Source: Duganella sp. 1224
Lineage (GTDB): Bacteria; Pseudomonadota; Gammaproteobacteria; Burkholderiales; Burkholderiaceae_D
NCBI RefSeq assembly: GCF_013408245.1
Contig: NZ_JACBYS010000008.1
Span: 62,001 to 126,000, forward strand
DNA: 64,000 nucleotides
Reading direction: 5' to 3'
Below the pieces are notes generated by a model. That model worked only from the letters and a program-made list of their open reading frames with translations. It was not told where the DNA came from and searched no databases. Position 1 is the first letter of the stretch. Every line of letters starts with the position of its first letter. Below are positions 39,103 to 64,000 of this stretch, one piece after another. A program made the position numbers and the translations under genes.

Positions 39103-39456
39103 TCAGCTGCCGCGATAAGTGGAGTAGGCCCACGGCGACACCACCAGCGGCACGTGGTAGTTCTGGCTGGCGTCGGCCACGCCGAAGGCCAGTGTGACCT
39201 CGTCGATGAACTTCGGCTCCGGCAGCGCCACGCCCTGGGCGTCGAAATACGCGCCGGCGCTGAAGACCAGTTCATACTTGCCCTGTTTTAGTGCGTCGCC
39301 CTCCAGCAGCGGCGTGGCGCAGCGGCCGTCGCTGTTGGTCACGTCGGTCTTCAGCAGCGTGCGGCCCCGCGGCGTCACCGCGTACAAGGCCAGCTTGACG
39401 CCGGCGCCCGGCTTGCCCTGCGTGATGTCGAGAACGTGCGTGCTGAGTTTGCCCAT
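39103..39456 (-). CDS. uraH: 5-hydroxyisourate hydrolase
   Basis: UraH hydrolyses 5-hydroxyisourate, the product of urate oxidation, to OHCU. The 117 aa protein has GKLSTHVLDITQGKPG at the N-terminus and the C-terminal YRGS tetrapeptide that marks this transthyretin-like enzyme. I set the start at the ATG with AGGACC upstream; a longer frame exists but lacks family similarity. It is divergent from puuE. Without a leader peptide it should act in the cytoplasm. Confidence 0.95.
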   Translation of the reverse strand: MGKLSTHVLDITQGKPGAGVKLALYAVTPRGRTLLKTDVTNSDGRCATPLLEGDALKQGKYELVFSAGAYFDAQGVALPEPKFIDEVTLAFGVADASQNYHVPLVVSPWAYSTYRGS

Positions 39457-39497
39457 GATCGGTCCTATATCCGTAGGTAATGAGTATCTATTGTGTA

Positions 39498-39533
39498 AAT
39501 CATATACCGCCATGCGCGTGGGCATATATGATT
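39498..39533. promoter_or_regulatory. Inverted repeat between uraH and puuE (candidate purine regulator site)
   Basis: AATCATATA (39498-39506) and TATATGATT (39525-39533) form perfect 9-base arms around an 18-base spacer, in the 109-base divergent gap. A further TATATCC/GGATATA pair lies at 39466-39472 and 39536-39542. TATATT at 39539-39544 could be the puuE -10. The two divergent catabolic genes would share one regulator; none is coded in the window. Confidence 0.45.
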
Positions 39534-39565: not shown

Positions 39566-40519
39566 ATGACCACTTACGACAACTACCCACGCGACATGAT
39601 CGGCTACGGCCCGACCCCGCCGCATGCGCGGTGGCCCAACCAGGCCCGCGTCGCCCTGCAGTTCGTGCTGAACTACGAGGAGGGCGGCGAGAACAGCGTG
39701 CTGCACGGCGATGCGGGTTCCGAGACTTTCCTGTCCGAGATCATCGGCGCGGCGTCGTTCAGCAACCGCCACATGAGCATGGAGTCGCTGTATGAATATG
39801 GTTCGCGCGCCGGCCTGTGGCGATTGCTGCGCATGTTCGAGGAGCGCAAGCTGCCGTTGACGATCTTTGGCGTGTCGATGGCGCTCAAGCGCAATCCGGA
39901 GGCGGTGGCGGCGTTCCAGCAGTTGGGGCACGAAATCGCCTGCCACGGCCTGCGCTGGATTTCATATCAAAACATGGACGAGGCCACCGAGCGCGCGCAC
40001 ATGAAGGAGGCGGTGGACATCCTCCGCGAACTGACCGGCAGCGCGCCGCAAGGCTGGTACACCGGCCGCGATTCGCCGCAGACGCGCAGGCTGGTGATGG
40101 AGCACGGCGGCTTCCGCTACGACGCCGATCACTACGGCGACGACCTGCCGTTCTGGCAGAAGGTCGACTACACCAATGCCGACGGCGTGGCTGCCAGCGC
40201 GCCGCAACTGATCGTGCCTTATACGCTGGACACCAACGACATGCGCTTCGCCGCCGCGCAGGGCTTCAACTCCGGCACGCAGTTCTTCGATTACCTGAAG
40301 GACGCGTTCGACGTGCTGTACGCGGAGGGCGATCCGGGGGGCCTGAACCAGCCGAAGATGCTGTCCATCGGCCTGCACTGCCGCATCGTCGGCCGTCCGG
40401 CGCGCGCGGCGGCGCTGGCGCGCTTCCTCGACTACGTGCAAAGTCACGACAAGGTCTGGATCACCCGCCGCATCGATATCGCCGAACACTGGCGCAAGGT
40501 TCACCCATTTGCTGAATGA
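39566..40519 (+). CDS. puuE: Allantoinase PuuE
   Basis: PuuE is the metal-independent allantoinase of the polysaccharide-deacetylase (NodB) fold; it opens allantoin to allantoate. The 317 aa protein begins with YPRDMIGYGPTPPHARWP, diagnostic for this family, and shows the NYEEGGENSVLHGD motif, GHEIACHGLRWI and YTGRDSPQTRRL. It lies 7 bases upstream of xdhA and so heads the purine catabolic operon. Confidence 0.95.
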   Translation: MTTYDNYPRDMIGYGPTPPHARWPNQARVALQFVLNYEEGGENSVLHGDAGSETFLSEIIGAASFSNRHMSMESLYEYGSRAGLWRLLRMFEERKLPLTIFGVSMALKRNPEAVAAFQQLGHEIACHGLRWISYQNMDEATERAHMKEAVDILRELTGSAPQGWYTGRDSPQTRRLVMEHGGFRYDADHYGDDLPFWQKVDYTNADGVAASAPQLIVPYTLDTNDMRFAAAQGFNSGTQFFDYLKDAFDVLYAEGDPGGLNQPKMLSIGLHCRIVGRPARAAALARFLDYVQSHDKVWITRRIDIAEHWRKVHPFAE

Positions 40520-40526
40520 GATTGTG

Positions 40527-41996
40527 ATGTCCGACCCGATTCGCTTTTACTACCGTGGCGCCGTGCAGGAGATCCACGACGCCGCCCCCACCCGCACCGT
40601 GCTGCAGCACCTGCGCGAGGACCTGCACTGCACCGGCACCAAGGAAGGCTGCGCCGAAGGCGATTGCGGCGCCTGCACCGTGGTGGTCGGCAGCCTGAAC
40701 GCGGCCGGCCAGCTGGAGATGAAGGCGGTGAACTCCTGCATCCAGTTCGCGCCCACGCTGGACGGCAAGGCATTGTTCACGGTGGAGGACATGCAGCAGC
40801 CGGACGGTTCGCTGCACCCGGTGCAGCAGGCGATGGTGGAGTGCCACGGCTCGCAGTGCGGTTTCTGCACGCCGGGTTTCGTGATGTCGCTGTGGGGCAT
40901 GTACCTGGACAAGGACGGCCAGCCGGCGCGGCGCAAAGAGATCGATGACTGCTTGTCCGGTAACCTGTGCCGCTGCACCGGCTACCGTCCCATCATCGAC
41001 GCGGCGCAGCGCATGACCGAGCTGCCCAAGGTGTCGTTTGACCGCGCCGCGTTGACGCGGCAGTTGCAGGCCTTGCAACGCGAGGCCGGCGCCACCTACA
41101 GCGCCGGCGGCGCCTCGTTCCATGCACCGCGCACGCTGGAGGAACTGGTGGCGCTGCGCGCCGCGCACCCCAAGGCCACGCTGCTGGCTGGCTCCACCGA
41201 CATCGGGCTGTGGGTGACCAAGCAGATGCGCGAACTGGGCGACATCATTTATCTCGGCCACGTCAGCGCGCTGCAAAGCGTCCAGCAGAAGGACGGCATG
41301 CTGGAAATTGGCGCGGGCGTGTCGCTCAACGAGGCGTATGCGGCGCTGTGCGAGTTGTATCCGGCGGAGCTGGGCGAATTGTGGCAGCGCTTTGCCTCGC
41401 TGCCGATCCGCAACGCCGGTACGCTGGGCGGCAATGTCGCCAACGGTTCGCCGATCGGCGACTCGATGCCGTGGATGATTGCGCTGGGCAGCGAGGTGGT
41501 GCTGCAAGGTCCGTCCGGCCGCCGCCTGCTGGCGCTGGAGGCTTTCTATCTGGACTACCAGAAGAAGGACTTGCGGGCCGACGAATTTGTTGCCGCAGTG
41601 CGGGTGCCGCTGCCGCGCGCAGAGGTGCGCTTCCGGACCTACAAGCTGGCCAAGCGCTTCGACCAGGATATTTCAGCGGTGTGTGCGGCGTTTGCGTTCA
41701 CGCTGGATGGCGACACCGTCAAGGATGCGCGGATCGCCTTTGGCGGCATGGCGGCCACGCCGCGCCGCGCGCCGCGTGCCGAAGCGTCGCTGACCGGCTT
41801 GCGCTGGAGCGAGGCCAATCTGCGGGTGGCGATGGACCAGTTGCAGCAGGACTTTGCGCCGCTGACGGATATGCGCGCGTCGAGCAGCTACCGCATGCAG
41901 GCGGCGCAGAATCTGCTGCGCCGCTTCTGGCTGGAGACGCGCGCCGACGCGCCGCTTGCGGCCGATGCCGTCAACGCTTTCGCTTGCCGCGCCTGA
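40527..41996 (+). CDS. xdhA: Xanthine dehydrogenase small subunit (FeS/FAD) XdhA
   Basis: XdhA carries the two 2Fe-2S clusters and FAD of xanthine dehydrogenase. The 489 aa protein starts with a ferredoxin domain (CAEGDCGACTVVVG), a second cluster domain (CGFCTPGFVMSLWG ... LCRCTGYRPIIDAA) and a FAD domain (LLAGSTDIGLWVTKQ, then GNVANGSPIGDSMPWMIALG). The ATG at 40527 is chosen over an earlier ATG at 40509 that would overlap puuE. Confidence 0.97.
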   Translation: MSDPIRFYYRGAVQEIHDAAPTRTVLQHLREDLHCTGTKEGCAEGDCGACTVVVGSLNAAGQLEMKAVNSCIQFAPTLDGKALFTVEDMQQPDGSLHPVQQAMVECHGSQCGFCTPGFVMSLWGMYLDKDGQPARRKEIDDCLSGNLCRCTGYRPIIDAAQRMTELPKVSFDRAALTRQLQALQREAGATYSAGGASFHAPRTLEELVALRAAHPKATLLAGSTDIGLWVTKQMRELGDIIYLGHVSALQSVQQKDGMLEIGAGVSLNEAYAALCELYPAELGELWQRFASLPIRNAGTLGGNVANGSPIGDSMPWMIALGSEVVLQGPSGRRLLALEAFYLDYQKKDLRADEFVAAVRVPLPRAEVRFRTYKLAKRFDQDISAVCAAFAFTLDGDTVKDARIAFGGMAATPRRAPRAEASLTGLRWSEANLRVAMDQLQQDFAPLTDMRASSSYRMQAAQNLLRRFWLETRADAPLAADAVNAFACRA

Positions 41997-42007
41997 AAGG
42001 AGCCATC

Positions 42008-44350
42008 ATGAATCAACCTGTTGCGCCATCCGCGATTGCGCAGTCCAGCGAGCACGCATGGCAGGCGGTGGGCGTGTCGCGTCCGCACGAATCGGCCGCG
42101 CTGCATGTGCTGGGGCAGGCTACGTACACGGACGACATTCCGGAGCTGCAAGGCACGCTGCACGCGGCGCTGGGCCTGTCGTCGAAGGCGCATGCGCGCA
42201 TCGTGGCGATGGACCTGGCGCCGGTGCGCGCCGCGCCGGGCGTGACGGCGGTCTATACCGCCGCCGATATCGTCGGCACCAACGACTGCGGCCCGATCAT
42301 CCACGACGATCCTATCTGGGCGGTGGAAGAGGTGATGTATGTCGGCCAGCCGATCTTCATCGTGGTGGCGGATACGCATGACAACGCGCGCCGCGCGGCG
42401 CGTCGGGCCGTGGTGACGTACGAGGAGCTGCCGGCCATCTTCACGCCGCAGGAGGCCAAGGCCGCCGGCTCCTACGTGCTGCCGCCGATGCAGCTCAAGC
42501 GCGGCGATTACCAGGCCGCCTTCGAAGCCGCGCCGCGCGTGGTGAAGGGGCAGTTGTTCGTCGGCGGGCAGGAGCAGTTCTATCTGGAAGGGCAGATCGC
42601 CTACGCCATTCCGAAAGAGGACAACGGCATGCTGGTGCAATGCTCCACGCAGCACCCGAGCGAGATGCAGCACGTGGTGGCGCATGCCATCGGCGTCCAC
42701 TCGCACAAGGTGCAGGTGGAGTGCCGCCGCATGGGAGGCGGCTTTGGCGGCAAGGAGTCGCAGTCGGCGCTGTGGGCGGCGTCGGCCGGCATCGCGGCGG
42801 CCAAACTGCGCCGTCCGGTCAAGCTGCGCGCGGACCGCGATGACGACATGCTGGTCACCGGCAAGCGCCATTGCTTCTACTATGAATATGAAGTCGGCTA
42901 CGACGATAACGGCAAGATCCTGGCGGCGCGCGTGGACATGACGCTGCGCGCCGGCTTCTCGGCCGACCTGTCCGGGCCTGTGGCAACGCGTGCCGTGTGC
43001 CACTTCGATAACGCCTACTATTTGTCGGACGTGGATATCCGCGCGGGCTGCGGCAAGACCAATACGCAGTCGAACACCGCTTTCCGCGGCTTTGGCGGTC
43101 CGCAGGGCGCGATTGCGATCGAGTACATTATCGACGAGATCGCGCGCAATCTGGGGCGCGATGCGCTGGATGTCCGCCGCCTGAATTTCTACGGCACGAC
43201 GGAGCGCAATGTCACGCCGTATGGGCAGGAGATTGTCGATAACGTGATCGAAGCGCTGACGGCGGAGCTGGAGCAGACCAGCGAGTACCGCGCGCGGCGC
43301 AAGGCCATCGAGGCGTTCAACGCCGGCAGCCCGGTGCTGAAGAAGGGCATCGCGTTCACGCCGCTGAAGTTTGGCATTGCGTTCAATGTCACCCACCTGA
43401 ATCAGGCGGGGGCGCTGGTGCATGTGTATGTCGATGGTTCGGTGCTGGTCAATCATGGCGGCACGGAGATGGGGCAGGGCATCAACACCAAGGTGATGCA
43501 GGTGGTGGCGCATGAACTGGGGCTGGACCTGTCGCACGTGCGCATTACGGCGACCGATACCAGCAAGGTGGCGAATACGTCGGCGACGGCGGCGTCCACC
43601 GGCGCGGACCTCAACGGCAAGGCGGCGCAGGATGCGGCGCGGCAGATTCGCGAGCGGCTGGCGGCGTATGCGGTCAAGCTGTACGGCGACGACGACGGCC
43701 AGCCGGTGCGCTTCTTCGACAATCACGTGCACGTGAACGGCCACAAGGTGCTGTTTGCGGAGCTGGTGCAGAAGGCTTATCTGGCGCGGGTGCAGCTGTG
43801 GTCGGACGGTTTTTATGCGACGCCGCATCTGCACTGGGATCCGAAGACGATGAGCGGGCATCCGTTCTCGTACTACGCGTATGGCGCGGCGGTGTCGGAG
43901 GTGGTGGTGGATACGCTGACCGGCGAGTGGAAGCTGCTGCGGGCGGACGCGTTGTATGATGCCGGCCGTTCGCTGAATCCAGCCATCGATATCGGCCAGG
44001 TGGAGGGGGCGTTCGTTCAAGGCATGGGCTGGCTGACCACCGAGCAGTTGTGGTGGAACGCGGCGGGCAAGCTGATGACGCATGCGCCTTCCACGTACAA
44101 GATTCCTGGTATCTCGGATTGTCCGAAGGACTTTCGCGTGAAGCTGTTCGATAATCCGAACGTGGAGGACAGCATCCATCGCTCGAAGGCGGTGGGCGAG
44201 CCGCCGTTGCTGCTGCCGTTTTCGGTGTTCTTTGCGATACGGGATGCGATTTCCGCCGTGGGCGGCCATCGCGTGCATCCGCCGCTGAACGCGCCGGCCA
44301 CCAGTGAAGAGATACTGCGGGCGGTGTCCGCGGTGGAAATGGCGTCGTGA
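42008..44350 (+). CDS. xdhB: Xanthine dehydrogenase molybdopterin-binding subunit XdhB
   Basis: XdhB holds the molybdenum cofactor and oxidises hypoxanthine and xanthine to urate. The 780 aa protein has ATYTDDIPELQGTLHAALGLS, the GGQEQFYLEGQIA motif, the MGGGFGGKESQ loop, NTAFRGFGGPQG and the C-terminal KAVGEPPLLLPFSVFFAIRDA, where Glu is the catalytic base. AAGGAG upstream supports the start; the longer frame into xdhA is not coding. It overlaps xdhC by one base. Confidence 0.97.
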   Translation: MNQPVAPSAIAQSSEHAWQAVGVSRPHESAALHVLGQATYTDDIPELQGTLHAALGLSSKAHARIVAMDLAPVRAAPGVTAVYTAADIVGTNDCGPIIHDDPIWAVEEVMYVGQPIFIVVADTHDNARRAARRAVVTYEELPAIFTPQEAKAAGSYVLPPMQLKRGDYQAAFEAAPRVVKGQLFVGGQEQFYLEGQIAYAIPKEDNGMLVQCSTQHPSEMQHVVAHAIGVHSHKVQVECRRMGGGFGGKESQSALWAASAGIAAAKLRRPVKLRADRDDDMLVTGKRHCFYYEYEVGYDDNGKILAARVDMTLRAGFSADLSGPVATRAVCHFDNAYYLSDVDIRAGCGKTNTQSNTAFRGFGGPQGAIAIEYIIDEIARNLGRDALDVRRLNFYGTTERNVTPYGQEIVDNVIEALTAELEQTSEYRARRKAIEAFNAGSPVLKKGIAFTPLKFGIAFNVTHLNQAGALVHVYVDGSVLVNHGGTEMGQGINTKVMQVVAHELGLDLSHVRITATDTSKVANTSATAASTGADLNGKAAQDAARQIRERLAAYAVKLYGDDDGQPVRFFDNHVHVNGHKVLFAELVQKAYLARVQLWSDGFYATPHLHWDPKTMSGHPFSYYAYGAAVSEVVVDTLTGEWKLLRADALYDAGRSLNPAIDIGQVEGAFVQGMGWLTTEQLWWNAAGKLMTHAPSTYKIPGISDCPKDFRVKLFDNPNVEDSIHRSKAVGEPPLLLPFSVFFAIRDAISAVGGHRVHPPLNAPATSEEILRAVSAVEMAS

Positions 44351-45501
44351 TGAACACGTGGCTGACAGCGCGGGTGTCTGAACCGGCAGTGCTGGTGACG
44401 GTGGCGATCGTGGAGGGCTCCGGCCCGCGCGAGCCCGGCGCCAAGATGCTGGTGACCGCGCATGAGCAGCACGATACGATCGGCGGCGGGCATCTGGAGT
44501 TGTGCGCGGTGGAGCTGGCGCGCGAGATGCTCAAAAGCGCCGTCAGCCAGCGCCTGGCCGCTGATGCGCTCGCGCCGGCCGGTGCCGCCGCGCCGTCGCG
44601 CGCGCCCGATGTGGCCGATGCGGATGGCGCCGCGTTGGTGGCGGGTTCGCGGCTGGAGCGATACGCGCTGGGCCCGACGCTGGGACAGTGCTGCGGCGGC
44701 GTGGTGCATCTGGCGTTTGAGCTGGTCGGGCCGGCGCTGGCTGCCGTGCTGGCCGGCTTGCGCGTCCGCTCGCGCGAAGACAGCTGGCGTCTCAGCGCCA
44801 TCGACGGGCCTTCAACTGCGGTGCTGCTCGACGCGGCCGGCAGCATCGTCGCTGGCGACGGCTCGGACGGCAGCGCGGCGTGCACCCGCGATGGCGTTGC
44901 TGCGCCGACCGTGGACCGCGAGCGCGGTACGCACGTACTGCGCGACGCCGCTGGCCGCCGCTGGCTGGCCGATCCCTGCCTGGCGCCGCGCGCGCATCTG
45001 GTGTTGTTTGGCGCCGGCCACGTTGGCGCGGCCATCGTGCGTTTGCTGGGCGAGCTGCCGTGCACCGTCACCTGGGTCGATGAGCGCGAGGACATGTTCC
45101 CCGCGGACCTGCCGGCCAACGTCACCACGGAAGCGACAGACACGCCGGAAGCCTGCGTGGCCAGCGCGCCGCCAGACGCCAGCTACCTGGTCATGACCCA
45201 CAGCCACGCGCTGGACCAGCGCCTGACCCAGGCCATCCTGGAGCGGAAAGACACCGGTTGGTTCGGACTGATCGGATCCCACACCAAACGGGTACAATTC
45301 GAACGCCGCATGGCCGCGCGCGGCATCCCGCAAGACCGCATCGACAACATGGTCTGCCCCATCGGCCTGCCGGGCATCTCCAGCAAGCTCCCCGCCGCCA
45401 TCGCCGCCTCCGTGTGCGCGCAGTTGCTGATGGTGTGGGAACGACAGCAAATCGCCGCCCTGGGCGGCGGTGCGTCAGCAAGGCTGGCGATAGCAAGCTA
45501 A
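44350..45501 (+). CDS. xdhC: Xanthine dehydrogenase accessory protein XdhC
   Basis: XdhC binds molybdenum cofactor, drives its sulfuration and inserts it into XdhB. The 383 aa protein has an N-terminal XdhC/CoxI domain (TVAIVEGSGPREPGAKMLV ... GPTLGQCCGGVV) and a Rossmann domain (LVLFGAGHVGAAIVRLL) ending with the GLIGSHTKRVQFERR motif. The region from about residue 60 to 105 is Ala-rich and longer than usual. The ATG lies in the xdhB stop (TGATG). Confidence 0.95.
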   Translation: MNTWLTARVSEPAVLVTVAIVEGSGPREPGAKMLVTAHEQHDTIGGGHLELCAVELAREMLKSAVSQRLAADALAPAGAAAPSRAPDVADADGAALVAGSRLERYALGPTLGQCCGGVVHLAFELVGPALAAVLAGLRVRSREDSWRLSAIDGPSTAVLLDAAGSIVAGDGSDGSAACTRDGVAAPTVDRERGTHVLRDAAGRRWLADPCLAPRAHLVLFGAGHVGAAIVRLLGELPCTVTWVDEREDMFPADLPANVTTEATDTPEACVASAPPDASYLVMTHSHALDQRLTQAILERKDTGWFGLIGSHTKRVQFERRMAARGIPQDRIDNMVCPIGLPGISSKLPAAIAASVCAQLLMVWERQQIAALGGGASARLAIAS

Positions 45502-45531: not shown

Positions 45532-46839
45532 ATGACCACCAACCTGCAAGCCTACCGTGGCAGCTTGCTGCACTTCCTCGCCGATCCGGCCTTCAGCGAC
45601 CAGTCGCACGACTGGCACGAAGACGGTCTGCTGATCGTCGAAGACGGCAAAATCCAGGCCGCCGGCGACTACGCCGCCTTGCGCGCCTCGCTGCCGCCGG
45701 GGACCTTGGTGCACGACTACAGCGGCAAGCTGCTGATGCCGGGCTTTATCGATACCCACATCCACTACCCGCAGACCGACATGATCGCCTCGCCGTCGGA
45801 AGGCCTGCTGCCATGGCTGGAGACGTACACTTTCCCGTCCGAGCGCCAGTTCGAGGACAGCGCGCACGCCGCCAACGTGGCCGACTTCTTCCTCGACGAG
45901 CTGCTACGCTGCGGCACCACTACCGCCATGGTCTACTGCACCGTGCACCCGCAATCGGTGGACGCCTTTTTCACCGCCAGCGAGCAGCGCGGCCTGCGCA
46001 TGGTGGCCGGCAAGGTGATGATGGACCGGAACTGCCCCGACTTCCTGCGCGACACCGCCGAAACCAGCGCCCGCGACACCGAGGCGCTGATCCGGCACTG
46101 GCACAAGCGCGGCCGCTCGCTGTACGCCATCACGCCGCGCTTCGCGCCGACGTCCACCGAACGCCAGCTGCAATTGGCCGGCGAACTGGCGGCCGCCTAC
46201 CCGGACACCTTCATCCAAACCCACGTCTCCGAAAACGAAGCCGAATGCGCGTGGGTGCGCGAACTGTTCCCCAACGCCCGCAGCTACATCGACGTCTACG
46301 ACAGCTACGGCATGCTGCGTCCGCGCGCCATGTACGGCCACTGCATCTGGCTCGATGAGCAGGACCGCCGCCGCATGGCCGAAACGCAGTCCGCCGCCGC
46401 CATCTGCCCGACCTCCAACCTGTTCCTCGGCAGCGGCCTGTTCGACTTCGAACGCGCCGACGATGCCGGCGTGCTGCTCTCGCTGGCCACCGACGTCGGC
46501 GGCGGCACCTCGTTCTCCATGTTGCAAACGATGAATGAAGCCTATAAAGTAGCGCGCTTGAAGGGCAGTTACCTGCCGGCGCTGCGCATGTTCTACCTGG
46601 CCACGCTGGGCGCCGCCCGCAGCATGCAGCTGGAAGGCACGATCGGCAGCTTCGCGCCGGGCGCGGAAGCGGATTTCATCGTCATCGATCCGCAGGCCAC
46701 GCCGCTGCTGCAGCGCCGTACGTCGCGCAGCAACAGCCTGGAAGAACTGCTGTTCGCGCTGGCCCTGCTGGGCGATGACCGCGCCATCGCGGCCACGTAT
46801 GCCGCCGGCCGCCAGGTGCATGTTCGTGAAACGACTTAA
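45532..46839 (+). CDS. guaD: Guanine deaminase
   Basis: GuaD converts guanine to xanthine, feeding XDH. The 435 aa amidohydrolase has MPGFIDTHIHYPQTDMIASP (metal ligands HIH), the HVSENEAE motif, GHCIWLDEQDRR, and SLATDVGGGTSFSML with the metal Asp. AGGAAG precedes the ATG. It is 30 bases downstream of xdhC in the same operon. No leader peptide, so cytoplasmic. Confidence 0.96.
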   Translation: MTTNLQAYRGSLLHFLADPAFSDQSHDWHEDGLLIVEDGKIQAAGDYAALRASLPPGTLVHDYSGKLLMPGFIDTHIHYPQTDMIASPSEGLLPWLETYTFPSERQFEDSAHAANVADFFLDELLRCGTTTAMVYCTVHPQSVDAFFTASEQRGLRMVAGKVMMDRNCPDFLRDTAETSARDTEALIRHWHKRGRSLYAITPRFAPTSTERQLQLAGELAAAYPDTFIQTHVSENEAECAWVRELFPNARSYIDVYDSYGMLRPRAMYGHCIWLDEQDRRRMAETQSAAAICPTSNLFLGSGLFDFERADDAGVLLSLATDVGGGTSFSMLQTMNEAYKVARLKGSYLPALRMFYLATLGAARSMQLEGTIGSFAPGAEADFIVIDPQATPLLQRRTSRSNSLEELLFALALLGDDRAIAATYAAGRQVHVRETT

Positions 46840-48310: not shown

Positions 48311-48343
48311 AAGCCGGCGGCATCCCCGCCGGCTTTGCTTTTT
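48311..48343 (+). terminator. Terminator after the purine catabolic operon
   Basis: AAGCCGGCGG (48311-48320) pairs with CCGCCGGCTT (48326-48335) around a five-base loop, then a T-rich tail. Confidence 0.85.
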
Positions 48344-51131: not shown

Positions 51132-51176
51132 TCGTTCATTGCAAGACGGGTTCCGGCCCGTCTTCCCTGCACGCAC

Positions 51177-51216
51177 AACACCCTATAAGGCCCGTACTTA
51201 TAGGGTGTTTTTTATT
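51177..51216 (+). terminator. Terminator after the first TonB receptor
   Basis: AACACCCTATAA (51177-51188) pairs with TTATAGGGTGTT (51198-51209), followed by TTTTTT. A further hairpin (AAGACGGG/CCCGTCTT, 51143-51164) lies just upstream. Confidence 0.9.
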
Positions 51217-51307
51217 GTTGGACGGCTTTGTAACGTAATATTTTTCGCCGCGCGCAGCGCGCCGGCTGAACGGTACAATGGCCGATTCCTCACACGTACG
51301 ACTCGCA

Positions 51308-55285: not shown

Positions 55286-55315
55286 GGGGTCTGACCCCGT
55301 ACGGGGTCAGACCCC
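55286..55315. repeat. GGGGTCTG-type perfect hairpin, copy 2
   Basis: GGGGTCTGACCCC (55286-55298) and its complement (55303-55315) around GTAC. It is the sister of the copy at 26020-26049. It follows the S1/P1 nuclease stop by 11 bases. Confidence 0.85.
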
Positions 55316-56262: not shown

Positions 56263-56326
56263 TCCCGCAGTGTGCCATCCCCTCGCGGCAGCGGCAAGTA
56301 GCGCGGCGCGGGTGCATAATAGGGCC

Positions 56327-56692
56327 ATGAAACGATTTATTCTGATGATCCTGCTGCACGCAATTCCGTTCACGCTGGCCCATGCGGCCGGGGATCCCAA
56401 GCGTGGCGAGGTGCTGTTCCAGCGCTGCGCGTCCTGCCACGCGGTGGGGCCGTACGCGAGCGCCGGCTATGGGCCGCAGTTGAACCGCATCGTTGGCCGG
56501 CGTTCGGCGTCGACCACGGACTACAGGTATTCCGAGGCGATGAAGAAATCGGGACTGGTGTGGAACGAGAAGAACCTGGCCGCGTTCCTGCGGGCGCCGC
56601 ATGACGTGGTGCCGGGCACCAGCATGCGCTTCTGGGGGATCAAGGATGAACAGCAGGTCGCCGACCTGCTGTCCTATCTGAAAACGCTATAA
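56327..56692 (+). CDS. Exported class I cytochrome c
   Basis: The 121 aa protein has a signal peptide (MKRFILMILLHAIPFTLAHA), a haem-binding CASCH at about residues 35-39, the GYGPQLNRIVGRRS stretch and the distal Met in VPGTSMRFWGI. It is a small soluble electron carrier of the mitochondrial-type c fold. CATAAT at 56315-56320, six bases upstream of its ATG, may be the -10. Partner unknown; XDH-type enzymes of the locus use FAD/NAD, so a link is not shown. Confidence 0.9.
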   Translation: MKRFILMILLHAIPFTLAHAAGDPKRGEVLFQRCASCHAVGPYASAGYGPQLNRIVGRRSASTTDYRYSEAMKKSGLVWNEKNLAAFLRAPHDVVPGTSMRFWGIKDEQQVADLLSYLKTL

Positions 56693-56812: not shown

Positions 56813-57784
56813 TTAGCGGGATTTCACGAACGGCGTGCCGAGCGCTTTCGGCGCCACCGACTTGGCCATCAGGCCGGCCAGCACGATCACGGTCAGCACG
56901 TACGGCACCATCTGGATCATGGCGCCCGGCAGGCGGCCGACCACCGGCAACTCCACGCCTTCGATCTGGATCTGTACCGCGCCGAAGAAGCCGAACATCA
57001 GGCAGCCGAGGAAGGTGTGCAGCGGACGCCAGTTACCGAACACCATGGCGGTCAGCGCCAGGTAGCCGGCGCCGGCCGACATGTCGCGCAGGAAGAAGCC
57101 ACTCTGCACGATCGACAGGTAGGCGCCCGAGAACGAGCACAGGAAGCCGGCGATCAGCATGGCGAAGTAGCGCTGGCGCTCGACGCTGACGCCGGCGGCA
57201 TCGGCGGCGTGCGGGTTCTCGCCGCAGGCGCGCAGGCGCAGGCCGAAGCGGCTGTGGTACACCACCCAGTGCACGATCGGCACCAGCGCAAACGCCAGGT
57301 AGACCAGCACCGAGTGGCCGCCGATCAGGTGGGCGTAGAACCAGCCGAGGAAGGGGATGTTCTCCACGGCGGCGGAGCCGGGCAGCACCACGTCGAACAG
57401 GCGCGCCGAGCCCAGGTCCGGCGTGCGGCCGCCCTGCTGGAAGAAGTACTGCGCCACCACGAAGGTCAGGCCGCTCATGGCGATGTTGATGGCAATGCCG
57501 GCCACCAGCTGGTTGCCTTTCTGGGTGATGGCGATGTAGGCCTGCAGGCTGGCCAGCAGCATCGACACCACGATGCCGGCCATCACGCCGTACCAAGGGT
57601 TCTGCGTGGTGAAGCCGACCGCCGCCGACACGAAGGCCGAGGCCAGGATCTTGCCTTCCAGGCCGATGTCGATCACGCCCGAGCGCTCGGCGAACAGGCC
57701 GGCCATGCCGGCGAAAATCAGCACCGGCGCGTTGCGCACGGTGGATACCAGGATACTGCCGATATGGAGGTCGTCAAAAGTCAT
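56813..57784 (-). CDS. Nucleoside-type ABC transporter permease (second)
   Basis: The 323 aa inner-membrane permease belongs to the BPD_transp_2 family (GLFAERSGVIDIGLEGKIL and FGLRLRACGENPHAADAAGV are hallmarks of the NupQ/YufQ branch). It is the last gene of a four-gene minus-strand ABC locus, 7 bases after its paralogue. About eight hydrophobic segments. Confidence 0.93.
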   Translation of the reverse strand: MTFDDLHIGSILVSTVRNAPVLIFAGMAGLFAERSGVIDIGLEGKILASAFVSAAVGFTTQNPWYGVMAGIVVSMLLASLQAYIAITQKGNQLVAGIAINIAMSGLTFVVAQYFFQQGGRTPDLGSARLFDVVLPGSAAVENIPFLGWFYAHLIGGHSVLVYLAFALVPIVHWVVYHSRFGLRLRACGENPHAADAAGVSVERQRYFAMLIAGFLCSFSGAYLSIVQSGFFLRDMSAGAGYLALTAMVFGNWRPLHTFLGCLMFGFFGAVQIQIEGVELPVVGRLPGAMIQMVPYVLTVIVLAGLMAKSVAPKALGTPFVKSR

Positions 57785-57791: not shown

Positions 57792-58865
57792 TCACTTCTT
57801 CAGTTTGAGCATTTTGGCGATGGCCGGGCCGTACAGGTTTTCCATCGCGCCGCAGAACAGGATGATCAGGCCCTGCACCAGGATCACCATCTCTGGCGGG
57901 ATGTTCTGCTTTTCCAGTGACAGGTCGAAGCCGCCCTGCGTCAGCGCGCCAAACAGCACCGCCGACAGGAAGATGCCGACCGGGTGCTGGCGGCCCATCA
58001 GCGCGATGGCGATGCCGATGAAGCCCGCGCCGCCAACGAAGTTCAGCGACAGGTAGTGGGTCGAGCCCATGATGGAATTGACCGAGCCCAGGCCGGCCAG
58101 CGCGCCCGAAATCAGCATGACGATGATGATCATCTTGCTGATGCGGATGCCTGCGTAGTGGGCGGCGTGCTTGTTCAGGCCCGTGGCGCGCACCTTGTAG
58201 CCCCAGGCGGAGCGCGACATCACCACGCCGTAGATCACCAGCGCGATGATCGCCAGGAAGAAGCTGATGTTGAGCGGCGTCTCGCCCAGGATCGGGAACC
58301 ACTGGTTCAGGCGCGGCATCTCGGCGGCGGCGGCAAACGCGCGGCTGGCCGGATTCTGCTCGCCCGGCGGCACCAGCTTGACGATGATGGTGTTCATCAG
58401 CGCGCCGGCGATGTAGTTGAACATGATGGTGGTGACCACCACGTGGCTGCCGCGCTTGGCTTGCAGGTAGCCGGGCACGAAGGCCCACAGCGCGCCAAAC
58501 AGCGCGGCGCCGATCATGCCGACCGGGATCAGCAGGATGGCCGGCAGCGAGCTGTCGAAGGTCAGCATGGCCAGCGTCAGGCCCAGGCCCGCGAAGTACA
58601 TCTGGCCCTCGGCGCCGATGTTGAACAGGCCCGCTTCCATGGCGATCGACACCGCCAGGCCGGTGAAGATGAAGGTCGAGGCGTAGAACAGCGTGTAGCT
58701 CAGGCCTTCCGGATTGACCACGGCGCTGTTGACCAGGATGGCCAGCGATTCGGTCGGGCTCTCGCCCAGCAGATGGATCACCAGTGCCGTCACCAGCAGC
58801 GCCGACAGCAGGTTCAGAAGGGGCATTACAAAGCCGGTTGCCCAGCGTGGCAAGTCTTTATTCAT
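57792..58865 (-). CDS. Nucleoside-type ABC transporter permease (first)
   Basis: The 357 aa permease is the NupP/YufP type: GLFNIGAEGQMYFAGLG, then KRGSHVVVTTIMFNYIAGAL and VRATGLNKHAAHYAGI. It overlaps the ATPase stop by 4 bases (ATGA) and is followed by the second permease. The pair forms the membrane channel. Confidence 0.94.
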   Translation of the reverse strand: MNKDLPRWATGFVMPLLNLLSALLVTALVIHLLGESPTESLAILVNSAVVNPEGLSYTLFYASTFIFTGLAVSIAMEAGLFNIGAEGQMYFAGLGLTLAMLTFDSSLPAILLIPVGMIGAALFGALWAFVPGYLQAKRGSHVVVTTIMFNYIAGALMNTIIVKLVPPGEQNPASRAFAAAAEMPRLNQWFPILGETPLNISFFLAIIALVIYGVVMSRSAWGYKVRATGLNKHAAHYAGIRISKMIIIVMLISGALAGLGSVNSIMGSTHYLSLNFVGGAGFIGIAIALMGRQHPVGIFLSAVLFGALTQGGFDLSLEKQNIPPEMVILVQGLIILFCGAMENLYGPAIAKMLKLKK

Positions 58866-60400
58866 GATTTGTGCATCCCGCCCATCAGCAGGCCGATACG
58901 GGTGGTGTCGAATTCTTCAATTTTCAGTTCGCCGGTGATGCGGCCGCCGCACATGACCAGGATGCGGTCCGCCAGCGCGCGCACTTCCTCCAGCTCCACG
59001 GAGACCAGCAGGATCGCCACGCCTTCGTCGCGCAGCTTGAGCAGCTGGGTGTGAATGCTCTCGATGGTGCCGATGTCGACGCCGCGGGTCGGCTGGCCGA
59101 CCAGCATCAGCTTCGGCTGCGCCAGCACTTCGCGCGCGATCACCACCTTCTGCTGGTTGCCGCCGGAGAGCAGGCCGATACGCAGGTCGTGGTTGTTGGG
59201 GCGGACGTCGAAGTCTTTCATCAGCGCCGCGCAGCGGGCGGCGATGGCCTTGAAGTTGAGCAGGCCCCACTTGTTTTTCAGCTTGTCCTGGTAACCGAGG
59301 ATGGTGTTGTGCATGACCGAGAAGGCCTTGACCACGCCATCGCGCAGGCGGTCTTCCGGCACGTGGGCGATGCCCAGTTCGCGGAAGGTGCGCGGCAGGC
59401 CGTCCGGATCGGTGCGGCCGTGTGTCGATCGACCCGGCAGGTCCTTGCCGAGGAATTCCAGCTTGCCGGACGTCGGCAGGCGCATGCCGGACAGGATTTC
59501 CATCAACTCGCTCTGGCCGTTGCCGGACACGCCGGCCACCGCGACGATCTCGCCGGCGCGCAGCGTGAAGCCGATGTCGGCCAGCAGCTTGACGCCCTGG
59601 TCGTCCAGCAGTTGCAGGTTCTCGACCTGCAGCACCGGCGCGCCGGGATTGTAGGGCGCGCGCGGCAGGTTATTTTCGATCGGGCGGCCGACCATCATGT
59701 TGGCCAGGTCTTCCTTGGTGGTGCCGGCGGTCGGCACGGCGCCGATCACGCGGCCGGCGCGCATCACCGTCACGGTGTCGGTGATGTCGAGGATTTCCTG
59801 CAGCTTGTGGGTGATCAGGATGATGGTCTTGCCCTGTTCCTTGAACAGGCGCAGGATCTCGAACAGCGACTCGGTCTCCTGCGCGGTCAGCACGGCGGTC
59901 GGCTCGTCGAGGATCAGGATGCTGGCGCTGCGGTAGATCTGCTTGAGGATCTCGACGCGCTGCTGGGCGCCCACCGACAAATCGTGGATGGTGGCCAGCG
60001 GATCGACTTCCAGGCGGTAGCGGGCGCAGATGTCGCGCAGCTCCTGCTCGACGCGGGCGCGGTTCTTGTTCAGCTTGAAGCCGCCCTCGCTGCCCAGCAT
60101 CACGTTATCCAGCACGGTCATGTTCTCGACCAGCATGAAGTGCTGGTGCACCATGCCGATGCCGAGCGCAATCGCCTCCTGGCTGGTGTGGATGCGGCGC
60201 GCCTGGCCATCCAGCAGGATCTCCCCGCCGTCGGCGCGGTAGTATCCGTACAGGATGCTCATCAGGGTCGATTTGCCGGCGCCGTTCTCGCCCACCAGGC
60301 CATGGATGGACCCCTTGGCGATGGCGAAGCTGACGTCCGTGTTCGCTTTGACCGCTCCGAAGTGCTTGGAGATGCCGCGAAATTCTACTGCTGGCTGCAT
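58862..60400 (-). CDS. Nucleoside-type ABC transporter ATPase with two ABC domains
   Basis: The 512 aa protein has two ABC modules. The first has GENGAGKST (Walker A) and ILDEPTAVLT (Walker B); the second has a diverged loop (GVSGNGQSEL) and LSGGNQQKVVIARE. This is the RbsA/YufO build of BMP-linked transporters for nucleosides or simple sugars. It energises uptake with the two permeases. It is separated from the binding-protein gene by a 76-base gap with a hairpin. Confidence 0.94.
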   Translation of the reverse strand: MQPAVEFRGISKHFGAVKANTDVSFAIAKGSIHGLVGENGAGKSTLMSILYGYYRADGGEILLDGQARRIHTSQEAIALGIGMVHQHFMLVENMTVLDNVMLGSEGGFKLNKNRARVEQELRDICARYRLEVDPLATIHDLSVGAQQRVEILKQIYRSASILILDEPTAVLTAQETESLFEILRLFKEQGKTIILITHKLQEILDITDTVTVMRAGRVIGAVPTAGTTKEDLANMMVGRPIENNLPRAPYNPGAPVLQVENLQLLDDQGVKLLADIGFTLRAGEIVAVAGVSGNGQSELMEILSGMRLPTSGKLEFLGKDLPGRSTHGRTDPDGLPRTFRELGIAHVPEDRLRDGVVKAFSVMHNTILGYQDKLKNKWGLLNFKAIAARCAALMKDFDVRPNNHDLRIGLLSGGNQQKVVIAREVLAQPKLMLVGQPTRGVDIGTIESIHTQLLKLRDEGVAILLVSVELEEVRALADRILVMCGGRITGELKIEEFDTTRIGLLMGGMHKS

Positions 60401-60459: not shown

Positions 60460-60476
60460 CAATGTTCAAACAGATT

Positions 60477-61472
60477 TTAGACCGGGCAGGCCGCGCCCGA
60501 ACGGATGTCGATGACCTTGACCTTGCCATCGATAATATCCTTGCGCGCGCCCATCACGCGCTTCTCGATGTCCGGCGTGATCAGCTTGCGGTTGTTCTCG
60601 TCCAGCGCCCAGTCGACGCCGCCTTCCTTCAGGCCCTTGGCGGTGACGCCGGCCTTCCAGGTGCCGTTCTTCATCTGCATGAAGGAATCGTACACGGCAT
60701 TGTCGACGCGCTTGACCATCGAGGTCAGGATCGCGCCAGGGTACAGGCTGTTCTGGTTGGAGTCGACGCCGATCGCCAGCTTGCCTTTTTCCTTGGCGGT
60801 TTGCAGCGTGCCCAGGCCCGAACCGCCGGCCACGGCGAACACCACGTCGACGCCGCGGTCGAACTGCGAGCGTGCCAGCTCGCCGCCCTTGGCCGGATTG
60901 TTCCACGAGTCGGAGGTAGTGCCGACCATATTGGACACCACTTCCACTTTCGGGCTGACGGCCTTGGCGCCCTGCGTGTAGCCGCAGGCGAAGGTGCGGA
61001 TCAGCGGGATGTCGACACCGCCGATGAAGCCCAGCTTCTTGGACTTGGAGGCCATGGCGGCGGCCACGCCCACCAGGTAGGAACCTTCTTCTTCCTTGAA
61101 CGTGATGGAGTTGACGTTGGCGCCTTGCGCCACGCCGTCGATCAGCACGAAGTGGACTTTCGGGAATTCTTTGGCGACCTTCTGCACGGCCGCCTGCTGG
61201 GCGAAGCCGATCGAGGCGATCAGGTCGAGGTTCTTGCGGGCGAGGCCGCGCAGCACCTGTTCAGCCTGGGTGTCGCTGGAGGCTTGCACCTCGATGAAAT
61301 TGATGTTGGTCTCTTTTTTGAAGCGCGTGGCGCCTTCGAAAGCGGACTGATTGAACGACTTGTCGAACTTGCCGCCTGCGTCATACACGATGCCCAGCTT
61401 AGGGTCTGCCGCGGACGCGCTGGCAGCGACACACAGTGCTGCAACCGTCAAACTAAGTTGTGAAAGTTTCAT
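60477..61472 (-). CDS. BMP-family (Med/BmpA) nucleoside-binding protein
   Basis: This is the periplasmic binding protein of the ABC transporter. The 331 aa protein has a signal peptide (MKLSQLSLTVAALCVAASASA), then LGIVYDAGGKFDKSFNQSAFEG, the start of the BMP fold, VHFVLIDGV, GSYLVGVAAAMASKSKKLGFIGG and AVAGGSGLGTLQTAK. GGAG precedes the chosen ATG; longer frames are rejected. Members bind purine nucleosides, or guanosine-type ligands, in several bacteria. Confidence 0.94.
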   Translation of the reverse strand: MKLSQLSLTVAALCVAASASAADPKLGIVYDAGGKFDKSFNQSAFEGATRFKKETNINFIEVQASSDTQAEQVLRGLARKNLDLIASIGFAQQAAVQKVAKEFPKVHFVLIDGVAQGANVNSITFKEEEGSYLVGVAAAMASKSKKLGFIGGVDIPLIRTFACGYTQGAKAVSPKVEVVSNMVGTTSDSWNNPAKGGELARSQFDRGVDVVFAVAGGSGLGTLQTAKEKGKLAIGVDSNQNSLYPGAILTSMVKRVDNAVYDSFMQMKNGTWKAGVTAKGLKEGGVDWALDENNRKLITPDIEKRVMGARKDIIDGKVKVIDIRSGAACPV

Positions 61473-61932
61473 GAATAGGCTCCTGGAAGAACGGTATTGT
61501 ATATTTTTATTGGCCGGTAGATGCAAAACCCGGCCGTTTTATTCCTCTAAATCCCTGATTTCACGCGTTAAGTGCTAGCAACTTGCTAAAAGCTTGTCAG
61601 ATTGGCAGTGCCACGCGACCATGTCGCACTGCAGCAACAGTGACCGCCAAATTAAATATTTTTGTATTGTTGCTTTTTTGTCCGATTGGACAAAACCGCG
61701 CCCCGCCGGCGCTGCCCGCGTTTCATAGGGAAGGCGGCTGTTTGCCTGGCATGGCGGGCCATTCCCCACTATGCATCAGCGCCGATCTGTACGGCAAATT
61801 CGATTTTTCTTTGTTATTTATATAAATAAGATATGAATCAAGTCCTACAAAAGATGCGTTTCCAGCATTTTTTTCCGTGCTAGCATGTTTGGTAATTAAC
61901 AAATACCACAACTAAATTAGGGAGTTGGACAC
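61473..61932. promoter_or_regulatory. Divergent regulatory region between bmp gene and second TonB receptor
   Basis: No gene is supported in these 460 bases. Two striking palindromes are present: TTTTGTCC-GATT-GGACAAAA at 61676-61695 and a perfect 16-base TTATTTATATAAATAA at 61814-61829. TGC-TAGCAT at 61878-61886 may be an extended -10 for the receptor; GGGAG before its ATG is the ribosome site. In the bmp leader a GGCCGG/CCGGCC hairpin (about 61514-61537) could act at RNA level. A regulator binding here would control uptake at both membranes. Confidence 0.5.
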
Positions 61933-64000
61933 ATGAGCAAACAGGGTTTCGCAGTGCGATCGTTGATCGCCCTGGCCGTCGCCGGCGCTTTCCCGCTGCA
62001 ATCGGCCCTGGCCACCGAGGGAGCGGCAGCCGCTGAGGGACAGGACACGCCGGCCGCCAGCGCGCCTGCCGCCAATCAGCTGGAAACGGTGATCGTGACC
62101 GCGCAGCGCCGCGCGGAAAACATCAAGGACGTGCCGATGTCGATCGCCTCGATCAAGGGCGACAAGCTGGACGTGCTGACCTCGGGCGCCGCCGACATCC
62201 GCTTCCTGGCCGGCCGTTCGCCGTCGGTCAACGTGGAATCGGACTATGGCCGCACCTTCCCGCGCTTCTACATCCGCGGCCTGGGCAATACCGACTTCGA
62301 CCTCAACGCCTCGCAGCCGGTTGGCTACGTGATGGACGACATCGTGCAGGAAAACGCCATGCTGAAGGGCTTCCCGGTGTTCGACGTCGACCAGGTCGAG
62401 GTGCTGCGCGGACCGCAGGGCACGCTGTTCGGCCGTAACTCGCCGGCCGGCGTGATCAAGTTCGACTCGGCCAAGCCGGTATTCAAGACCGAAGGCTACC
62501 TGACCCTGGGCGTGGGCAACTACAGCGCCAAGAACGCCGAAGGCGTGTTCAATATCCCGGTCAGCGACACCGTGGCGCTGCGCTTCTCCGGCACCAGCCA
62601 GCACCGCGACGACCGCGTGCACAACACCAACCCGACCCCGGGCAAGGGCACGCAGGACTTCGAAGGCTACCGCGACAACGCCTTCCGCCTGCAGGCGCTG
62701 GTGCGTCCGACCAAGGACTTCGACGCGCTGTTCAACTACCATGAGCGCGACTACCACGGCACCGCCACCCTGTTCCGCGCCAACATCATCAAGAAGGGCA
62801 CCAACGACCTGGTCGACGGCTTCGACTACGGCTCTTATCCGAGCGACGGCATCAACTACCAGATCCTGAAAAACAAAGGCGGCAGCATCCGCCTGAAGTA
62901 CAACCTGGACGACATCACGCTGCACTCGATTACCGGCTACGAGACGCTGAAGTTCAACAGCCGCGCCGACGTGGACGGCGGCTACGGCGCGGTGTACGCG
63001 CCACCGTACGGCCCGGGCTACATCCCGTTCGCGGTGGAAACCGCCGACCTGCTGCCCAACCACAAGCAGTTCACCCAGGAGTTCCGCGCCGAGTCCAACT
63101 ACAAGGGCCCGCTGCAGTGGATCGGCGGCCTGTTCTTCTTCGACGAGAACATCCAGATCGACTCGATCGCCTTTGACACCTTCTCGCCGGGCAACCCGCA
63201 AGTGGCGCCGTACTCGGTGCAGTACCAGAAGGCCAAGTCGTGGGCGGCGTTCGGCACGCTGAACTACACCGTCAGCGACCAGTTCAAGGTGCGTGGCGGC
63301 CTGCGCTACACCAACGACAAGAAGGACTTCTCGGCGTCGCGCATCGACTACCCGGCCGGCTCCACCACGCTGACCACCGCCACCACCGACCTGCACGATA
63401 CCTCGCACAACCTGAGCTGGGACCTGAGCGGCACGTACGAGCTGGACAAGAACACCAACCTGTTCGCCCGCGTGGCGACCGGCTACCGCGCGCCATCGAT
63501 GCAGGGCCGGTTGAGCGCGCTGACCGACAAGCCATCCAAGGCCGGCGCCGAGAAGGCGCTGTCGTATGAAGCCGGCATCAAGCAGGACCTGTTCGACAAG
63601 CGTGCGCGCCTGAGCGCGTCGGTGTTCCAGTACCGCGTCAAGGACAAGCAGCTGACCGCCGGCAGCGGCTCGGTCAACATGAACCAGCTGATCAACGCCG
63701 ACAAGGTGACCGGCCAGGGCGTCGAGCTGGACCTGCAGGCCAACCTGGGCTACGGCTTCAGCAGCACGCTGGGCTACAGCTACAACGACACCGAGATCAA
63801 GGACTCCAAGCTGTTCGTGCAGTATTGCGGCAACTACGGCAACAACCCGACCCACGCCAGCGGCTGCACCCCGACCAATCCGGCCGGTCCGTTCGCCGGC
63901 ACCTCGCTGATCAACGGCAATCCGCTGCCGCGCGCGCCGAAGAACCAGTTGAACTTCACGCTGAAGTACAGCACCGAGATCGGCAACGGTGAGTTCTACG
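61933..64000 (+). CDS. TonB-dependent receptor (3' end outside window)
   Basis: The first 689 residues are inside the window and the frame is open at the edge. It has a signal peptide (about residues 1-27), a TonB-box-like ETVIVTAQRR, a plug domain with VPMSIASIKGDKLD, FYIRGLGNTDFD and VEVLRGPQGTLFGRNSPAGVI, then barrel strands with NYTVSDQFKVRGGLRYTNDKK and FARVATGYRAPSM. This is the common TonB-receptor type of betaproteobacteria. It diverges from the BMP gene; purine uptake is the inferred role. Confidence 0.92.
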   Translation, partial: MSKQGFAVRSLIALAVAGAFPLQSALATEGAAAAEGQDTPAASAPAANQLETVIVTAQRRAENIKDVPMSIASIKGDKLDVLTSGAADIRFLAGRSPSVNVESDYGRTFPRFYIRGLGNTDFDLNASQPVGYVMDDIVQENAMLKGFPVFDVDQVEVLRGPQGTLFGRNSPAGVIKFDSAKPVFKTEGYLTLGVGNYSAKNAEGVFNIPVSDTVALRFSGTSQHRDDRVHNTNPTPGKGTQDFEGYRDNAFRLQALVRPTKDFDALFNYHERDYHGTATLFRANIIKKGTNDLVDGFDYGSYPSDGINYQILKNKGGSIRLKYNLDDITLHSITGYETLKFNSRADVDGGYGAVYAPPYGPGYIPFAVETADLLPNHKQFTQEFRAESNYKGPLQWIGGLFFFDENIQIDSIAFDTFSPGNPQVAPYSVQYQKAKSWAAFGTLNYTVSDQFKVRGGLRYTNDKKDFSASRIDYPAGSTTLTTATTDLHDTSHNLSWDLSGTYELDKNTNLFARVATGYRAPSMQGRLSALTDKPSKAGAEKALSYEAGIKQDLFDKRARLSASVFQYRVKDKQLTAGSGSVNMNQLINADKVTGQGVELDLQANLGYGFSSTLGYSYNDTEIKDSKLFVQYCGNYGNNPTHASGCTPTNPAGPFAGTSLINGNPLPRAPKNQLNFTLKYSTEIGNGEFY

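Follow-up and report, generated by a model that had tools for sequence, protein, structure and literature searches.

Genes and transcription units of the locus

The DNA analyzed here is a 64,000-nt stretch from Duganella sp. 1224 (contig NZ_JACBYS010000008.1, positions 62,001–126,000), hereafter called the window. At positions 39103–64000, it carries genes of purine catabolism, predicted exported enzymes, a BMP-type ATP-binding cassette (ABC) transporter, and two TonB-dependent receptors (TBDT1 and TBDT2). On our best reading of the sequence, the locus would be an uptake system under local regulation that serves nucleic-acid fragments or nucleosides, with TBDT1 occupying a slot between an exported deaminase and a 5'-nucleotidase in which receptors have been exchanged. 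All the gene families named in an earlier note on this DNA were found intact, and curated models were passed where such exist. The features of the locus are as follows.

39103–39525, minus strand: uraH, hydroxyisourate hydrolase (TIGR02962, 127 bits; cut-off 87)
39566–40519, plus strand: puuE, allantoinase (TIGR03212, 524 bits; cut-off 425)
40509–41996, plus strand: xdhA, xanthine dehydrogenase small subunit, true start maybe slightly inside (TIGR02963, 685 bits, above cut-off)
42008–44350, plus strand: xdhB, molybdopterin subunit, start inferred (TIGR02965, 1276 bits, above cut-off; scanned as the open reading frame, ORF, 41210–44350)
44347–45501, plus strand: xdhC accessory protein (TIGR02964, 292 bits, above cut-off)
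45532–46839, plus strand: guaD, guanine deaminase (TIGR02967, 600 bits; cut-off 375)
46854–48290, plus strand: exported adenosine-deaminase-like enzyme, ADA (PF00962; signal peptide; motifs HHH, HAGE, RIGHG, and STDD)
48311–48335, plus strand: terminator-like stem-loop that would close the puuE-ADA unit, fitting by position and tail
48539–48579, plus strand: promoter element before TBDT1, AAAAACGTATTTGTC-N16-TGCAATAGT, second box one base longer
48612–48629, plus strand: suggestive Pho-box-like direct repeat upstream of TBDT1, TTGTCAT-ACCA-GTGTCAT
48735–51131, plus strand: TBDT1, the TonB-dependent receptor in the slot (PF07715 and PF00593; predicted fold)
51177–51209, plus strand: terminator-like stem-loop behind TBDT1
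51278–52996, plus strand: 5'-nucleotidase (5NT), a lipoprotein (PF02872 and PF00149; motifs DxH, GNHE, and GHSH; lipobox LAGC)
52996–54219, plus strand: exported PLD-family enzyme with two HKD motifs, start codon inferred (PF13091; scanned as ORF 52069–54219)
54216–55274, plus strand: exported S1/P1 nuclease (PF02265, 96 bits; cut-off 29.5)
56378–56692, plus strand: cytochrome c-like protein
56813–57784, minus strand: ABC permease 2 (PF02653, BPD_transp_2)
57792–58865, minus strand: ABC permease 1 (PF02653, BPD_transp_2)
58862–60400, minus strand: ABC ATPase with two nucleotide-binding domains (PF00005, two stretches)
60477–61526, minus strand: BMP-type (PnrA-like) binding protein (PF02608, 230 bits; TmpC structure 2fqw, E-value 1.6e-41)
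61768–61808, minus strand: promoter element before the BMP operon, AAAAATCGAATTTGCC-N17-TGCATAGT
61933–64000, plus strand: TBDT2, the second TonB receptor, extending 254 bases beyond the window (773 residues with the next stretch)

The Pfam scan covered 20 window proteins, and signal peptides and the lipobox were called by eye. Judged by strand and gaps, the genes form at least five transcription units, namely uraH; puuE to ADA; TBDT1; 5NT-PLD-S1/P1, with overlaps of a few bases between its genes; and, on the opposite strand, the BMP operon. A scan for terminator-like structures returned 5 sites against a mean of 7.7 in shuffles, i.e., fewer than in shuffled sequence, and scans of the window with Rfam (gathering scores) and for tRNA returned nothing.

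What we take to be the active-site motifs of ADA, S1/P1, 5NT, and PLD were all present. In the S1/P1 protein, Trp22, the first residue past the signal peptide, aligned with Trp1 of the solved structure 8qjl, and the zinc-ligand motif reads HLSGDIAQPLH. The best solved-structure matches of ADA by sequence were the AMP (adenosine monophosphate) deaminase of the snail Helix and CECR1; its active-site motifs and export signal identify it as a predicted ADGF/ADA2-like exported deaminase, with adenosine or AMP as its putative substrate. The PLD-family enzyme may be a nuclease or a phospholipase. The BMP protein, two BPD_transp_2 permeases, and double-ABC ATPase together form a predicted PnrA-like ABC importer, for which nucleosides as the putative substrate are supported by the nucleoside hydrolase, cytidine deaminase, PsuG, and deo genes that neighbor it in relatives.

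The earlier note had read a complete route to allantoate into positions 39103–64000. The xdh genes, uraH, and puuE do lie there, while uricase (PF06181, 162520–163410) and OHCU decarboxylase (PF09349, 160868–161353, fused to an M20 amidase) are encoded approximately 35 kb past the window end (126000) of the same contig. The genome-wide allantoate set (xdh, uricase, uraH, OHCU decarboxylase, and puuE) is therefore complete only with genes past the window. A uricase of the PF01014 type was not found in the genome, which carries the PF06181 type instead. Past the window, the contig also encodes DUF969, a pyroglutamyl peptidase, an Indigoidine_A protein (presumably PsuG-type), a PfkB kinase, PNP, DeoB-type and DeoC proteins, an aldehyde dehydrogenase, a DeoA-type protein, and a cytidine deaminase, with likely pyrimidine catabolism genes further along (126000–175000). 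The locus is thus part of a region of approximately 60 kb that also carries other genes.

Three further features of the window were recorded. A protein encoded at 55348–56400 on the minus strand has no Pfam or NCBIfam match; in many loci of the Duganella type, its gene separates S1/P1 from the BMP operon. A palindromic repeat of the GGGGTCTGACCCC type lies at 55286–55315, between S1/P1 and the next gene. The gene at 34045–35073 on the minus strand scored 222 bits against the NCBIfam model of APH(3') family aminoglycoside phosphotransferases (cut-off 205).

A conserved slot with exchanged receptors

Conservation was surveyed in 145 genomes of the family, in which TBDT1 was matched in 36 genomes (40 places; E-value 1e-60), the S1/P1 nuclease in 38 (E-value 1e-30), and the BMP protein in 45 (E-value 1e-60). 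The loci fetched were the 39 TBDT1 places besides the window's own and 27 S1/P1 loci without an adjoining TBDT1; counts of S1/P1 loci are out of 37 for the fetched set and out of 38 when the window is included. The order ADA-receptor-5NT-(PLD)-S1/P1 recurred in 31 of the 38 S1/P1 genomes (30 of the 37 fetched loci and the window), with ADA directly before and 5NT directly after the receptor in 30/37 loci and the window; the exceptions were contig ends, one locus with a more distant ADA, and lineages with a different order. PLD was the least constant member, with a gene in 17/37 loci. BMP-operon genes occurred within the fetched stretch (up to 20 kb) in 25 of the 27 S1/P1 loci without an adjoining TBDT1, and the BMP loci away from S1/P1 carried a nucleoside hydrolase in seven of nine cases, four of them together with cytidine deaminase and PsuG. 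Because the whole genome encodes just three PF02872 proteins and the order recurs across genera, the grouping goes beyond chance. The conserved co-occurrence of S1/P1, PLD, TonB receptor, xdh/guaD, and BMP genes, which the earlier note had proposed as a check, was borne out among the relatives.

The slot between ADA and 5NT holds receptors of two types. Among the 38 S1/P1 genomes, it was filled by an Oar-type receptor in 26 and by TBDT1 in 11 (including the window), and coincided with a contig end in one; the two types never occurred together in the slot (0/37 fetched loci). The Oar-type receptor has approximately 1140 residues, and the member scanned (L055) matched PF13620 (CarboxypepD_reg, 57 bits) and PF25183 (OMP_b-brl_4, 174 bits), with Plug at 20.9 bits, below the cut-off of 23.9. 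No significant kinship between TBDT1 and this Oar-type receptor was found by blastp (best E-value 0.19). In a different setting, at L201 and L203, an Oar-type gene stands upstream of a TBDT1 relative with 48–49% identity.

In a tree built on the flanks (ADA, 5NT, and S1/P1) of 62 loci, from which five duplicates had been removed, the slot type switched at least 12 times (37 TBDT1 and 25 Oar), a set in which 30 of the 62 loci had been recruited via TBDT1, inflating the TBDT1 type; the 32 loci recruited otherwise (25 Oar and 7 TBDT1) still forced at least six switches. Where the slot type differed, the intergenic DNA differed too, with one exception within genus g6, where in three comparisons across slot types a single 80-base bin, which holds the promoter element, was 69–70% alike; in two such comparisons in g12, the best bins reached 64–66% and are less telling. 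Receptors of the same type also diverged from their surroundings. In L015 and L021, both with TBDT1, the upstream DNA was 89–100% alike and the receptors were 61% identical. The window shared 90–94% identity in its flank proteins with its nearest flank relatives, L151 and L152 (Duganella levis and D. margarita), and 63% in TBDT1, and a quick receptor tree rejected the flank clade of these three (approximately unbiased test, P = 2e-29). This conflict between the receptor and flank trees, together with the slot switches, indicates that receptors have been exchanged both as whole genes and as alleles.

Between the window and L152, the DNA of the promoter, plug, and flanks was approximately 80–95% alike and that of the barrel strongly different. 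An exchange of the barrel alone between the window and its nearest flank relatives was considered, since DNA identity fell from approximately 90% to approximately 60% over 49300 to 51350, but was not retained, as the contrast at four-fold sites was weaker for the window and L152 (flanks 77–87%, plug 74%, later stretches 62–79%); for this reason, part of the barrel divergence may reflect fast evolution, even though the flank clade is rejected by the receptor tree. The barrel at 49300–51350 would record receptor exchange or very fast change, perhaps with phages or toxins as the driver. As far as gene order and sequence can tell, a fixed slot with repeatedly exchanged receptors suggests that the breakdown products of DNA and RNA are taken up actively.

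Partners of the two TonB receptors and a shared promoter element

Neighbors of TBDT1 were counted within a radius of 4 kb in 103 distinct places (120 given, 17 duplicates removed), and 91 of these had a nucleic-acid or nucleoside gene; the figure was 68/68 for receptors with at least 52% identity and 23/35 below 52%. The kinds of partner varied: nucleotidase (74 places), S1/P1 (47), ADA (43), PLD (41), guaD (36), and nucleoside hydrolase (7), and more rarely CNT (2), cytidine deaminase (2), NCS2 (2), a class-II phosphodiesterase (1), and deo (1). ExbB, ExbD, or TonB genes lay close to TBDT1 relatives in 26/103 places, and none were seen near the TBDT1 of the window. Relatives with their own ExbB, ExbD, and TonB genes include L032–L037, L046, L047, and L052, among others; at L046, ExbB and a BMP-type ABC transporter are separated by a GntR/UTRA regulator.

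By reading upstream regions, we found an element of the form AAAWCGTATTTGYC-N13-18-TGCATAGT, which on our reading resembles a putative sigma-70 promoter with an operator across the −35 box. Across the fetched loci, which overlap in part and total 3.71 Mb, it had 109 matches (91 distinct) against one in the reversed sequence, assigned to BMP (31), TBDT1 (28), Oar (24), PNP (9), and other positions (17). When up to 4 of 18 mismatches within 450 bases of a gene were allowed, the element lay upstream of TBDT1 in 38/69 cases, Oar in 23/27, BMP in 23/44, and PNP in 7/11, with 1, 1, 1, and 0 in the respective reversed-sequence controls. It was likewise found upstream of 2 of 77 5NT genes and of none of the S1/P1 (65), puuE (30), ADA (59), guaD (43), PsuG (20), or TBDT2 (25) genes, and xdh is not preceded by it. 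A strict form was searched for in 11 genomes (the genome itself, six of the genus, and four from other families) and had 10 matches in six of them, all at the locus (PNP 6, BMP 2, TBDT1 1, and Oar 1), against one for the backward-pattern control.

The genome's own copies lie at 48545 (first box exact), at 61793 on the minus strand, and past the window at 69919 (extended coordinates). The copy at 48545 is absent from the two-box scan because its second box carries an extra base. With one mismatch allowed, the first box had six sites in the genome against four in the control, the TBDT1 copy alone being exact, so the first box by itself is not specific. Because the receptor, BMP operon, and deo operon share the promoter element, they are probably under one regulator. 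The shared control envisaged earlier would thus extend to these three units, and the element gave no sign of it at puuE, guaD, ADA, or S1/P1 and next to none at 5NT. As another operator candidate, the palindrome TTGCTAA, which precedes TBDT1 and BMP, was considered and discarded, since it was not conserved (0/52 BMP and 14/85 TBDT1 upstreams).

Pho-box-like repeats were also enriched before the slot receptors. With up to two mismatches, they occurred upstream of TBDT1 in 14/106 cases, compared with 2 for the reversed sequence (35 and 11, respectively, with up to three mismatches), and upstream of Oar in 3/27 compared with 0, and in none of eleven other gene sets at up to two mismatches. These repeats, including the window's own copy, would suit phosphate scavenging, in which the receptor and phosphoesterases would serve phosphate limitation, the substrates of PLD and S1/P1 would be phospholipids or phosphodiesters of any kind, and purine use would be just a neighbor; the PLD family is indeed not specific to nucleic acids. 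Against this stand the element, which ties the receptor to the BMP and deo genes, and the presence among its partners of ADA, nucleoside hydrolase, CNT, NCS2, and cytidine deaminase. We regard phosphate scavenging as a genuine possibility and yet the less probable account, and it can be partly compatible with nucleic-acid uptake if DNA serves as a source of phosphorus, nitrogen, and carbon.

The earlier note had assigned both TonB receptors to nucleic acids. For TBDT1, whose nucleic-acid neighbors recur with changing partners, gene neighborhoods support the assignment, and this receptor withstood the refuting condition set in that note; TBDT2 did not. Orthologs of TBDT2 (at least 64% identity) occupied 31 places, of which 14 were divergent from BMP, in two genera (eight in g1 and six in g12), and 17 lay elsewhere. 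None of the 16 fetched among these 17 had a nucleic-acid gene within 4 kb; two had weak matches farther off, an xdhB-like gene (26%) at 6.7 kb and an NCS2-like gene (43%) at 7.8 kb. Its position beside BMP would favor the participation of both receptors, as would the genus g6 loci (L107–L112), in which TBDT2 lies elsewhere and all six fetched copies keep the element upstream. There the element points away from TBDT2, no gene served by it was identified, and it is perhaps a relic of the BMP promoter; in the direction of TBDT2 itself, the element was found in 0/25 cases. With 0/16 away from BMP, we consider it unlikely that both receptors belong to the system, and the case for the membership of TBDT2 is weak. 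We also considered a pyroglutamyl-peptide set of TBDT2 with DUF969 and Pcp and rejected it, as both stay near BMP in L093 without TBDT2; neither gene turned up next to the 16 copies of TBDT2 that lie apart from BMP.

Proposed uptake route and comparison with known systems

From the computed genes, conservation, receptor exchange, and element, we infer a substrate, a cellular location, an order of steps, and a regulator. It is probable, in our judgment, that this stretch belongs to a larger nucleic-acid utilization system with a single receptor slot, between ADA and 5NT, as its outer-membrane gate. The slot receptor, here TBDT1, would actively import short oligonucleotides or nucleotides most likely, and free nucleosides less likely. 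In the periplasm, S1/P1 and PLD would trim the imported fragments, the lipoprotein 5'-nucleotidase would strip phosphate, and the exported deaminase would convert adenosine to inosine. The BMP ABC transporter would then move nucleosides to the cytoplasm, where the deo operon would cleave them by phosphorolysis and guaD, xdhABC, uricase, uraH, OHCU decarboxylase, and puuE would convert purines to allantoate. The weakest steps of this scheme are the size of the substrate and the cellular location.

The order given in the earlier note, in which nucleic acids are cut and deaminated outside the cell and the receptor imports free nucleosides or bases, was not established. It draws on the export signals of the nuclease, nucleotidase, and deaminase and on the nucleoside or base transporters beside some relatives. 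Only Sec signals or a lipobox were seen, and these by themselves lead to the periplasm or membrane, so that oligonucleotide import with subsequent digestion in the periplasm fits at least equally well, and TonB receptors usually serve ligands too large or too rare for porins; this extracellular order therefore seems to us somewhat unlikely.

Several observations weigh against a slot receptor for nucleic-acid products. Porins let nucleosides through, so their entry does not strictly call for a TonB receptor. At the cut used, 12/103 TBDT1 places had no nucleic-acid neighbor: at L046 and L047, a BMP relative falls just below the cut (29.5%), L038 and L195 are short contigs, CpdB adjoins the TBDT1 relative at L194 outside the count of 91, and L045, L200–L204, and L206 are real misses. 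Several neighbor-gene seeds came from the very loci counted, and synteny is common to close species, so the TBDT1 places do not count as independent. The element was noticed post hoc, and the claim built on it therefore rests on the controls and not on a P value; 17 of its 109 matches had no listed gene (some BMP promoters and six beside TBDT2), roughly every second promoter of TBDT1 and of BMP lacks it, and so do the enzyme genes with zero counts above. In the available part of one report, several TonB receptors that rise in DNA-grown Pseudomonas aeruginosa were attributed to iron acquisition (PMC6555301). Lastly, the solved receptors nearest TBDT1 by sequence or fold are those for siderophores, ferric citrate, pyrroloquinoline quinone (PQQ), and cobalamin.

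TBDT1, which is 91% identical to its counterpart in Duganella radicis, has a signal peptide, an N-terminal Plug, and a C-terminal TonB beta-barrel, and its predicted fold is that of a TonB receptor. Its weak family matches are iron receptors. The 50 rows listed in the fold comparison were TonB receptors for other ligands with close scores, and no solved nucleic-acid receptor was among them; matches of such similar score to different ligands neither narrow the ligand of TBDT1 nor exclude any. Together with the nearest solved receptors and the relatives without nucleic-acid neighbors, the family matches would suit a receptor for an unrelated ligand, e.g., an iron or cofactor complex, that was placed here by chance or hitch-hiking. 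Nucleic-acid partners are kept across differing arrangements in many genera, the same slot is occupied by an unrelated receptor type, and TBDT2 serves as a control with 0/16, all of which make an unrelated ligand quite improbable.

A bolder proposition is put forward tentatively and at somewhat less than even confidence: the family may have a dedicated TonB-energized system for feeding on nucleic acids, in which two unrelated families of oligonucleotide or nucleotide receptors compete for one slot and were repeatedly swapped there (as whole receptors or just the barrel), with phages or toxins that exploit the receptor as the probable selective pressure, and a private regulator joins the receptor, nucleoside importer, and deo operon. 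That unrelated receptors replace each other repeatedly in one slot amounts to a natural experiment, in that features common to both types should reveal the substrate. With its consistent nucleic-acid partners, its matching inner-membrane importer, and the shared element, this receptor family is a concrete, testable candidate for active outer-membrane uptake of nucleic-acid fragments.

To our knowledge, Ca. Izemoplasmatales have no outer membrane. Their loci place purine deaminases beside xanthine dehydrogenase, as here, and the available portion of that text has no occurrence of "TonB" (PMC8289736). Shewanella ExeM is likewise an exported nuclease, and nutrient acquisition is among the named functions of such enzymes; "TonB-dependent" does not occur in the accessible part of the paper (PMC6085458). 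No direct precedent was found in the accessible parts of PMC6555301, PMC12914433, PMC8027193, PMC8289736, and PMC3400609. Among the titles and abstracts listed by a full-text literature search, with subscription journals mostly outside its reach, none described a TonB receptor from Proteobacteria that serves products of nucleic acids. The established ligands of TonB receptors are metals, siderophores, vitamins, and sugars. Each part of the locus comes from a known family; the combination, slot, and element are new to us.

Tsx is a passive nucleoside channel; the job proposed for the slot receptors, nucleoside passage across the outer membrane, is the same, but theirs would be TonB-dependent. 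The importer resembles the PnrA/TmpC-type nucleoside ABC importers in its BMP protein, two permeases, and double ATPase, and differs in that the promoter element links it to a TonB receptor of the outer membrane. The SusC-type polysaccharide or ribose utilization loci of Bacteroidota resemble the present locus in that they combine a TonB receptor with exported hydrolases, an importer, and the genes to catabolize a single polymer. Pfam matched no SusD-like protein, as a SusCD-type locus would carry, among the 20 window proteins. The locus may therefore be likened to a polymer utilization locus with a TonB receptor, minus the SusD-like part among the proteins scanned, in which the substrate class would be nucleic acid and the receptor is of the Plug and barrel or the Oar type.

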